From: Gemmatimonadota bacterium
GTDB taxonomy: Bacteria; Latescibacterota; UBA2968; UBA8231
Assembly: GCA_002712305.1 (NCBI GenBank)
Contig: PATE01000077.1
Span: 1-11,880, forward strand
Length of the DNA: 11,880 bases
Direction of reading: 5' to 3'
Within the stretch, counting starts at the first letter, position 1, and every line of letters begins with the position of its first letter. Below are positions 247 to 4,050 of this stretch, piece after piece. The notes under the pieces were generated by a model. It had not been told where the DNA came from, did no database searches, and saw nothing but the letters and a program-made list of their open reading frames with translations. Made by a program: the position numbers and the translations under genes.

Positions 247-1998
247 TCAGGCGTGGGTCTTCGCCAGTGGCTTGTCGGGTGTGGCGCCGCTGTAAAGGCC
301 TCCAGAGCGTTCGTACGACACCTGCACGTCTCCATCGTCTGCGACCTCAAGCCGCGGGACGTTTCCCGAGTGATTGTCCCGGTCGGGGCCGCGCATCACC
401 GACAGTTGGGCGTCGCTCATTCCCTCCACCACATCGCCCCACCTTGCCTCAGGGTGAGCGAAGTCTCCGCCACTGCGATTGAAGTTGCGTGACGAGTACT
501 TGATCAGAATGCTGCGCCGCGCCACCTCGCTATGCCAGGCGAGGGCGCCATGGGTCTGGGCGCCATCCATAAAGAACAACACGTCGCCCGCCTTGAAGGT
601 GGGATGGACGACGAGACCCATGTCGTCATCACAGGAGCGAACGCCGGGCGGCATCCGATACTGTGCTTTGTGGCTGCCTGGAACACAGGCGAAGCCCCCA
701 TCGTCGTCGGTGACGTCGCGGAGTTGCCAGGTGACGGTCACGGCTTCGCAGAAGCTGCGACCGTTCTTGTAGACATAGGAGCGACTCGGATTCAGCGGTT
801 CGTTGGCATCGTGCAACGAGTGGCCTGAGGTGCCCTTCACAGCGCAGAACGCCGTGGGTCCGTCACATCGGAAGCCGCTGCCACCCATCCACGTAAGTCG
901 ATGGACGACGGCGGGGTGGGCCACCATGCGGCGAAAGGGGCCACACCAGGGTTCTGGCAACTCGAGCAGACGATTCAGCACAGGTCGCCCCGTGCCGGCC
1001 AGGGACGTTGAGTTACGAGACAGCTCTTCCTGGACGACGATGTCGGACTCGAAGCGATCGATCGCCCCGTTGGCCAACGCTAGGTCTTCGGGACTCATGA
1101 CGTCTCGGATCACCAGATGTCCACACAGGTCCCAGAAGAAGAACTCCTCCTCATCGATGCCGCAGTCCGGATCGTGACGCAGAAAGGACGGATGGAAGGC
1201 CTCATCTGCAGAGGCGACGTGACAATCGTCACCCTTGGCAATGAGCGTTTTCGGGGGTGTGGTGTCCGATCTGCCCGGTCCGTGCAGGACGGTCTGTTGG
1301 GCAGGCGTCAATTCCTCTTTCCACGGCGGACTCTGTGTCTCAAAGGCGTCCGCGCCCGAACCGGCCTCGAGGATGACGCCTCTGGCGGCGAAGCCGTAGT
1401 CGAGAAGTCGAAGGCGCCTTTCCCCTTTCCATGGACGGAGCCCACGGATCGTTGTGTCAGCGAGGAGCAACAGATCGCCGGCTCTCACGGGAATCTCACG
1501 GACCAATCCCAGATCCTGTGCGCCCTCTCGAAACGCTGATGGCATGGCCACGTTGGTCTTGTGACTCGCCTGCACGAAGGCAAGACCACCGTCACCCTCA
1601 GCCACATCGTCCAATGCCCAGATCGCCCGCACCAACTGACACTGGCGACGAGCATTCTGGTGGTAGTAGGCGCGGGCTTGATCACGAGGCTCGTCACCTC
1701 CTGACAGTTTGCCATCGAAACTGAGCTTGGCTGCCGGGTCGTCCGTGATCAGGCGGGGGAGTTGCTCGAGGCGAAAACCGGTACCGCACAGCTGATTGAG
1801 GTAGTCCACCAGCACCGGGTGGACGAGCAGATCGCGAAAGAATTCGCGCTGCTCATCTTCCCAGCTCAGCATGTCATCGAACTGGCCGGTCGCATCAAAG
1901 GCCTCATTGAGCTGGGCTACCATCGTGTCGCTCAAAACGCCGGGCACGATCAGGTAACCGCCCGCGTCGAAACAGTAGTTCTCTTCGTTCGTCATCAT
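247..1998 (-). CDS. tandem phytanoyl-CoA dioxygenase (PhyH)-family protein, 583 aa, N-terminal domain lacking metal ligands
   Basis: The protein is two copies of a PhyH-type double-stranded beta-helix domain, residues about 6-245 and 281-550. Family members are usually about 250-300 aa, so this is a duplication/fusion. The copies align by eye: LSGGDEP (98-104) with LHDANEP (395-401); D-V-x(3)-DGG with D-V-x(3)-DGG; QASHK with PGSHK (440-444); TTIRGLRPW (182-190) with AQTHGALAW (480-488); and both end in a similar L/M-x(7)-GP stretch. PhyH enzymes use Fe(II) and 2-oxoglutarate to hydroxylate a substrate. Candidate ligands H396 and H483, and R494/R495, are present only in domain 2; domain 1 has S99 and R185 at the His positions. 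Domain 2 reads H-D-A rather than the classical HxD. The start at 1998 is supported by an AGGAG 8 bases upstream and by an ATGA overlap with the preceding gene. Substrate unknown; it is the last gene of a three-gene operon. There is no signal peptide, so it is probably cytoplasmic. Confidence 0.85.
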   Translation of the reverse strand: MMTNEENYCFDAGGYLIVPGVLSDTMVAQLNEAFDATGQFDDMLSWEDEQREFFRDLLVHPVLVDYLNQLCGTGFRLEQLPRLITDDPAAKLSFDGKLSGGDEPRDQARAYYHQNARRQCQLVRAIWALDDVAEGDGGLAFVQASHKTNVAMPSAFREGAQDLGLVREIPVRAGDLLLLADTTIRGLRPWKGERRLRLLDYGFAARGVILEAGSGADAFETQSPPWKEELTPAQQTVLHGPGRSDTTPPKTLIAKGDDCHVASADEAFHPSFLRHDPDCGIDEEEFFFWDLCGHLVIRDVMSPEDLALANGAIDRFESDIVVQEELSRNSTSLAGTGRPVLNRLLELPEPWCGPFRRMVAHPAVVHRLTWMGGSGFRCDGPTAFCAVKGTSGHSLHDANEPLNPSRSYVYKNGRSFCEAVTVTWQLRDVTDDDGGFACVPGSHKAQYRMPPGVRSCDDDMGLVVHPTFKAGDVLFFMDGAQTHGALAWHSEVARRSILIKYSSRNFNRSGGDFAHPEARWGDVVEGMSDAQLSVMRGPDRDNHSGNVPRLEVADDGDVQVSYERSGGLYSGATPDKPLAKTHA

Positions 1999-2889: not shown

Positions 2890-4050
2890 ATGAATCAGAA
2901 ACTGATGAATCGCTACCCGTCGATTGCCGATCTGCGTTTGCGGGCTCTCGAACGCATCCCTCATTTCGCCTGGGAATATCTGGATAGTGGCACGGGGGCC
3001 GACGTCTGCATGCGGCGCAACCGAGAGGCCCTCGATGCGGTGACGATGGTCCCACACTTCATGAAGGGCGTCTTTCAGCCGATTCTCTCGACGCGTCTGT
3101 TCGGCGTTCTCTACGATGTCCCCTTTGGTGTGTCGCCCGTTGGTTTGACGGGTCTGATGTGGCCGCGGGCTGAACGCATCCTCGCGGTGTCCGCTGGAAA
3201 ACACCGGCATCCTTACACGCTCAGCACAGCAGCGACGGAAGCGCCGGAGACCATCGGGCCCCTCGCCGACGGCATGGGCTGGTTTCAGCTCTATCCTCCG
3301 CGAAGTGCCCAGATTCGACGGGATCTGATCGAGCGGGCTCGTGACTCGGGATTCACAACTCTATTGGTGACGGCAGACGTGCCCATCGCCAGCCGCCGCG
3401 AGCGTCAGGTAAAGGCGGGTGTTGTCGTGCCACCCAAGATCACCCCACTCATGTTGTATCGATGCGCAATCAGGCCCGCCTGGAGTCTCGCGACGCTCAT
3501 CGCGGGTCGCCCACGCTTTCGTGGACTCGAGCAGTATATCCATGGTCGAGACATGCGCGATATGCTGCAGTTCATCGGTCAGGAGCTGGGCGGTGGACTC
3601 GACTGGGATTACCTGAAGGCCGTGAGGGAGGAGTGGAATGGCCCTCTCGTGCTCAAGGGGGTGCTTCATTCGGCAGAGGCGATCGAAGCCGTTTCGATCG
3701 GCTATGATGGGATCATGGTGTCTAATCACGGCGGGCGGCAGTTCGATGGCGCGCCGGCGGCGATCTCGGTGCTACCGGAGATTGCCGAGGCGGTCGGTCA
3801 GCGAGCGAAGATTCTCTTTGACAGCGGTATACGGGGCGGGCTCGACATTATTCGTGCCCTGGCACTGGGCGCCGATTTCGTGCTGTTGGGCAGGGGGTTC
3901 ATGTATGGCGTCGGTGCCCTGGGCCGTCGCGGCGGCGATCATGTGGCCGAGATCCTGAAGGCGGATCTTACGAACAATATGATCCAGTTGGGATGCAGGT
4001 CGATTGCGCAGATCAAGGAACGGGGCGCGAGGGCCCCGTCACCAAGCTAG
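2890..4050 (+). CDS. FMN-dependent alpha-hydroxy-acid dehydrogenase/oxidase (LldD/glycolate oxidase family)
   Basis: This 386-residue protein is typical in length for this TIM-barrel family, which oxidises 2-hydroxy acids such as lactate, glycolate or mandelate to 2-oxo acids using FMN. Expected active-site residues are visible: Tyr30 (WEYLDSGTG), Tyr135 (WFQLYPP), Asp163 (VTADVP), Arg172, Lys256 (LVLKGV), and His280 with Arg283 in SNHGGRQFDG. The FMN-phosphate region DSGIRGGLD (311-319) and LLGRGFMYG (332-340) are intact. There is no membrane-anchoring insert, so it may be a soluble type. The exact substrate cannot be assigned. ATG 2905 (MNRYPSIADLR) is an equally good start, since family similarity begins at RYPSIADLR; neither start has a strong Shine-Dalgarno. 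The stop TAG shares its last base with a GTG that may start the next ORF. Confidence 0.92.
   Translation: MNQKLMNRYPSIADLRLRALERIPHFAWEYLDSGTGADVCMRRNREALDAVTMVPHFMKGVFQPILSTRLFGVLYDVPFGVSPVGLTGLMWPRAERILAVSAGKHRHPYTLSTAATEAPETIGPLADGMGWFQLYPPRSAQIRRDLIERARDSGFTTLLVTADVPIASRRERQVKAGVVVPPKITPLMLYRCAIRPAWSLATLIAGRPRFRGLEQYIHGRDMRDMLQFIGQELGGGLDWDYLKAVREEWNGPLVLKGVLHSAEAIEAVSIGYDGIMVSNHGGRQFDGAPAAISVLPEIAEAVGQRAKILFDSGIRGGLDIIRALALGADFVLLGRGFMYGVGALGRRGGDHVAEILKADLTNNMIQLGCRSIAQIKERGARAPSPS

Follow-up and report, generated by a model that had tools for sequence, protein, structure and literature searches.

The question raised by this locus is why a bacterial protein should carry two PhyH domains on one chain when only one of them appears able to hold iron, and what the other domain is kept for. 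The window, i.e., the whole stretch of 11,880 nucleotides analysed here, contains a fused PhyH-PhyH gene at 247..1998 on the minus strand, which encodes 583 amino acids plus the stop codon. The start codon is the ATG at 1998 or the ATG at 1995, and AGGAG is found immediately 5' (1999-2003). A preliminary description of 247-1998, which was silent on the strand, had regarded the first half of the protein as a dead domain that is kept; the open reading frame reads on the minus strand. The sequence of the fused protein was compared with fused and unfused homologues and with known oxygenases, and the origin, the constraint and the predicted fold of its first half were analysed.

Active-site residues and lid segment of the two domains

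The fused gene product is a member of the PhyH superfamily (PF05721) in each half: Pfam detects the family separately in residues 1-262 (36.0 bits) and in residues 263-583 (37.1 bits), both above the gathering cutoff of 22 bits, and the two halves aligned to each other show 28% identity over 290 columns (E value 1e-27). Domain 1, the putative pseudo-oxygenase domain (residues 1-262), is encoded by 1213..1998 and domain 2, the presumed catalytic domain, by 250..1212, both on the minus strand; the PhyH core of domain 2 spans approximately residues 280-505 and a C-terminal extension runs to residue 583.

In profile alignments with human PHYH, EasH and AndA, two histidines of domain 2 fall on the two metal-binding histidines, i.e., the proximal His396 (811..813, minus strand; aligned to the metal His of PHYH, EasH and AndA) and the distal His483 (550..552, minus strand), and Arg494 (517..519, minus strand) falls on the 2-oxoglutarate (2OG) Arg of PHYH and AndA. 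At the equivalent positions domain 1 has Ser99 (1702..1704) opposite His396, Arg185 (1444..1446) opposite His483, and Leu196 (1411..1413) opposite Arg494, all on the minus strand, the last depending on the alignment register: two alignments lay two residues apart, and the ungapped one (R494/L196, R495/R197) was chosen, with the 'RG' motif further along the sequence as its anchor. An alignment artefact at the His sites was rejected because the separate BLAST, MAFFT and HMMER profile alignments give the same positions. The claim of the preliminary description that only the second domain keeps the metal-binding histidines is thus borne out by the half-to-half alignment, in which Ser99/His396 and Arg185/His483 are equivalent. 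Of the canonical Fe(II)/2OG oxygenase signature (HxD/E...H triad plus 2OG Arg), domain 1 has Ser99, Arg185 and Leu196 in place of both histidines and the Arg, and domain 2 has the two metal histidines and the 2OG Arg.

The two domains also differ in length at one place. Domain 1 is about 25 residues shorter than domain 2 at a segment that we call the substrate lid because of the alignment to AndA and the description of SptF, in which the lid over the substrate is formed by Trp53-Asn75 (PMC8748661). The shortened segment, from which the lid loop would have been lost, lies at residues 36-44 of domain 1 (1867..1893, minus strand; measured as the length N31..R55), and the approximate equivalent of the SptF/AndA lid in domain 2 lies at residues ~323-347 (958..1032, minus strand). 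The earlier statement that neither half is truncated is therefore only roughly right, domain 1 being of full length except for the lid.

Conservation of the losses and probable origin from a gene pair

Near-universal loss of the sites at positions 99 and 185 was found in domain 1 when 184 distinct fused homologues were collected, which answers the question of conservation left by the preliminary description. In domain 1 both histidines and the 2OG Arg are missing in 149/179, and all three are present in only one. Site 99 is His in 1/179 and otherwise freely variable (V, S, T, I, A, Q, E); site 185 (n = 181) is Q in 136, R in 17 and H in 16 sequences (His ~9%), and the equivalent of Arg494 is still R in 18/181. 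In domain 2 the set His/His/Arg is kept in 183 of the 184 homologues, the remaining sequence being cut (His396 site, His in 184/184; His483 and Arg494 sites, 183/183 readable). The stretch that separates the second helix from the 'PFR' motif (N31..R55) is 13-26 amino acids long in 175/175 measurable domain 1 sequences, as compared with 47-69 in 184/184 domain 2 sequences and 49-52 in the unfused genes of LFF type described below.

The single fused protein with His/His/Arg in domain 1 (L153, 352-2199; G028:C60:293554-295014) is a homologue of the kind that the preliminary description had named as evidence against its view, but the lid segment is deleted there as well. Since this protein keeps both domain 1 histidines yet is without the lid, the lid was probably lost before the metal ligands, an order read from one intermediate. 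In L010 a His at site 185 occurs within an Arg-bearing group of the domain 1 tree, which could be explained by a one-base reversion. In L015 (5677-7721) domain 1 is apparently frameshifted, with two overlapping frames, which would be explained by an error in sequencing or by decay of this copy.

Fused homologues were found in one scan of species genomes in metagenome-assembled genomes labelled Gemmatimonadetes, Latescibacteria, Poribacteria and one Planctomycetota. Whole-genome searches gave long fused matches for many of the 64 genomes from the phylum to which the window belongs and for 58/84 genomes from the phylum labelled Poribacteria; in Planctomycetota the fused gene was detected in 1/294 genomes, and that lone gene is therefore either a rare transfer or a case of misbinning. 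The window's own genome holds a second intact fused copy that is 57% identical (G000:C29), and in this single 4.8 Mb genome (G000) the PhyH query has around 39 matches, a strong family expansion. Many proteins of sponge-associated and marine bacteria that carry the label 'phytanoyl-CoA dioxygenase' have one half that is probably unable to bind iron.

Two kinds of unfused PhyH genes are related to the two halves: the LFF type with the motif LFFAETATHG and the FFM type with the motif FFMDGAQTHG. In a maximum-likelihood tree from which the metal columns were left out (TlxI, discussed below, was not among its sequences), all domain 1 sequences form one clade (SH-aLRT 100) beside the unfused LFF genes (83, moderate support) and all domain 2 sequences form one clade (98) beside the unfused FFM genes (98). 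In the first set of loci an FFM neighbour was present beside the LFF gene in 26/26 cases; the two genes are separated by -22 to 113 bases, and the order is mostly LFF first, matching the fusion. In a separate search that started from the LFF profile such a neighbour was present in 47/49 (overlapping loci counted), the exceptions being a contig end and a broken gene. Both unfused kinds keep both metal histidines, and the LFF genes carry His/His/Arg in 48/48 readable cases. Tight LFF-FFM tandems occur in L026 (5965-7775), L022, L023, L025, L027, L028, L030-L035, L040 and others, sometimes with extra FFM copies.

As judged from these comparisons, the simplest history is a single fusion of a closely spaced LFF-FFM pair, with the active site of domain 1 lost largely afterwards. 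The ancestral pair was probably co-transcribed, and the tandem LFF and FFM genes likely encode a heteromeric enzyme, for which no function has been described. The homologues form a natural series from a gene pair with both histidines, through a fused protein with both histidines and a lidless domain 1 (one case) and proteins with half-lost sites, to a fully dead domain 1; the change from oxygenase to putative helper domain can be read stepwise within one protein family.

No conserved neighbours were found across the fused loci compared, and the surroundings therefore give no hint of a substrate. A sulfatase gene is located near L009 and another near L026. In the window, an FMN-dependent alpha-hydroxyacid dehydrogenase (PF01070) is encoded at 2890-4050 on the plus strand, and the rest is occupied by Nudix, ankyrin, two GNAT, methyltransferase and MBL-fold genes and a HAD fragment, with no link to the PhyH gene seen. 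Positions 1-309 of the window repeat the end of contig C18 (G000:C18:11697-11888, L286), from which 110 bases (116-225) are absent; this is an assembly overlap in which the missing bases may reflect a strain-level indel.

Fold, constraint and proposed role of domain 1

Domain 1 evolves faster than domain 2 yet is under purifying selection. When the window protein is compared with L009, the nearest relative, Ka/Ks is 0.108 for domain 1 and 0.076 for domain 2, and over the 405 pairs in which synonymous change is not saturated the medians are 0.128 and 0.078, respectively; Ka of domain 1 exceeds that of domain 2 in 355 of these pairs, and its stem branch in the tree is longer (0.90 vs 0.43). Domain 1 models as a complete PhyH fold: the AF2 model of this domain alone (35 alignment rows) has a pLDDT of 87.1 and a pTM of 0.88, and in VIA-align the model matches HygX with Z 21.0 and TlxI with Z 18.2, a score that several further oxygenases share. 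In the full-length model (11 rows) the pLDDT is low (67.9), and no interface between the domains could be read from it.

The former pocket of domain 1 looks rebuilt and not worn away. Four Arg residues, R105, R118 (~93%), R124 and R188, and also Q121, are conserved in domain 1 and not in the unfused LFF genes; the lost His and Arg are most often replaced by Q185 and Q196; E103 is kept in 172/179 sequences and R197 is kept too. Residues Y111, H146 and D175 are invariant in domain 1 and are general PhyH-fold residues, present in domain 2 and in the unfused genes as well. No newly conserved His, Asp or Glu was found in domain 1 relative to the unfused LFF genes. The view that domain 1 is dead but kept, and that random decay is unlikely, agrees with the near-universal loss of the sites, and it fits better than decay because the fold is well predicted (as the preliminary description had wished to see for the first half) and purifying selection is evident. 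Domain 1 has lost catalytic residues, retains a predicted fold and is constrained, as expected of a pseudoenzyme, and these data support a conserved pseudo-oxygenase domain that would lack activity of its own.

We propose, with a probability of roughly 60%, that the protein is an internal oxygenase/pseudo-oxygenase pair that arose by fusion of adjacent PhyH genes and in which domain 1 is the non-catalytic partner of domain 2. Two adjacent, related genes, LFF upstream and FFM downstream, both with metal histidines beforehand, would have been joined; domain 2 would carry the working active site with its two histidines and 2OG Arg, and domain 1 would have lost the lid and then both metal ligands and the 2OG Arg, its pocket being refilled with conserved Arg and Gln. 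Domain 1 would then contact domain 2 and hold it in shape, and would probably complete or close its substrate pocket, in the way that TlxI serves TlxJ. Of this history, the sequences show the fusion, the losses, the constraint and the predicted fold, and through one intermediate also that the lid preceded the ligands. A built-in partner is favoured because of the TlxI/TlxJ/TalA precedent and the matching losses, and a partner or scaffold role also because the origin is an adjacent gene pair. Some observations count against this model: R105, R118, R124, R188 and Q185 of domain 1 equally fit a ligand-binding pocket, E103 and R197 are retained, domain 1 of L153 keeps His/His/Arg, and the grouping of domain 1 with LFF genes has only moderate support (SH-aLRT 83). 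Sequence does not discriminate, for domain 1, between the three roles offered in the preliminary description (structure, substrate binding, allostery).

The main rival, which we consider possible, is a regulatory domain that binds a ligand or substrate, the new Arg set holding a small anion or a substrate handle. The conservation of R105, R118, R124, R188 and Q121 in domain 1 and not in unfused LFF genes, the prevalence of Q185 and Q196 and the retention of E103 would suit such a site, but the same residues could form a salt-bridge network that replaces the metal and stabilises the fold, and site 99 is freely variable. A domain 1 that acts mainly as an intramolecular chaperone for folding or solubility and takes no part in the active site of domain 2 is unlikely; it would recall TlxI, first spotted by raised TlxJ expression (PMC11880133), and by sequence it is inseparable from the favoured partner model. 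It is more improbable still that domain 1 remains an active enzyme with different metal ligands or a different chemistry, as the conserved E103, H146, D175 and Y111 and the fewer protein ligands (two His) of AspH (PMC10947486) might suggest: H146, D175 and Y111 belong to the general PhyH fold, no new acidic residue or His has become conserved, and both histidines, the 2OG Arg and the lid were lost together. Least probable, and very much so, is a decaying relic without function. The faster evolution of domain 1 and the frameshift in L015 would agree with decay, but Ka/Ks stays at ~0.11-0.13, in 175 proteins from at least two phyla only the lid is missing from an otherwise complete domain, and Y111, H146 and D175 do not vary.

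The metal site of domain 2 and comparison with known systems

The second domain, to which the preliminary description had assigned the metal-binding histidines, does keep both of them and the 2OG Arg, but it is not canonical, the Asp of the HxD motif being absent. The H+2 position is Ala398 (window 805-813, His396-Asp397-Ala398), and in all 184 domain 2 sequences it is occupied by G, A, S, N, P, Q, C or T; no Asp or Glu was found at H+2 in these 184 or in the unfused genes examined. A Glu at H+4 is present in 48/48 unfused LFF genes, but only in 147/184 domain 2 sequences. The working halves of such 'phytanoyl-CoA dioxygenase' proteins are also without the textbook Asp, and an unusual iron site, with two His or of another kind, could exist in a very large group of bacterial PhyH proteins, which we regard as a lead only. 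Fe/2OG halogenases with HxG/A provide a precedent for a two-His iron site. Among natural oxygenases, AspH uses two His (PMC10947486).

The PhyH family is expanded in Poribacteria, to more than 1.9% of genes (Kamke et al. 2014, PMC3909097); the Pfam family is the same and the bacteria are of a similar kind, being uncultured and often associated with sponges, and the text-search passages of that paper do not describe fused proteins, dead domains or LFF/FFM pairs. The nearest solved relative of both domains, by sequence and fold, is HygX of Streptomyces hygroscopicus (PDB 4XC9/4XCA/4XCB/4ZPI), an iron- and 2OG-binding oxygenase that forms the orthoester of hygromycin B; it has a single domain and no dead partner.

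It is doubtful, though worth stating, that the fused proteins form a large conserved bacterial class of oxygenase/pseudo-oxygenase fusions, convergent with TlxI-TlxJ and TalA, in which the working half has two protein metal ligands. If this is true, domain 1 may tune a two-His iron site at which hydroxylation proceeds with no carboxylate ligand, or at which an extra ligand, e.g., chloride, is employed in the manner of a halogenase.

The closest known parallel to the PhyH-PhyH fusion is found in fungi. TlxI and TlxJ form a heterodimer in the talaromyolide pathway of Talaromyces purpureogenus (PDB 7VBQ, 7VBR), in which TlxI, without the 2OG Arg and with a short cap loop (loop A), is non-catalytic and TlxJ is catalytic; one TlxI loop takes part in substrate binding, and the kcat/Km of TlxJ accordingly increases from 0.02 to 1.63 in the presence of TlxI (PMC12141560, PMC11880133). 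A stable dimer in which a loop of the partner (loop B) completes the pocket of the catalytic subunit is characteristic of this type of auxiliary oxygenase. As in that pair, two related PhyH-type Fe/2OG folds are combined and one would be non-catalytic; as in TlxI, the 2OG Arg of domain 1 is mostly lost and the lid segment is short (175/175). Both fungal chains match the family profile, and the top structural matches of domain 1 include TlxI. Unlike the fungal proteins, which are separate subunits with a known substrate, the bacterial protein is a single chain, and unlike TlxI, with which it shares ~16% identity, domain 1 has lost both metal histidines as well and appears to descend from a bacterial neighbour gene, since it groups with the LFF genes in a tree without TlxI. 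TalA of Talaromyces pinophilus, a natural fusion corresponding to TlxI-TlxJ (PMC11880133, PMC13311259), likewise has a pseudo-oxygenase and an oxygenase on one chain; it is fungal and apparently the product of a separate fusion event.
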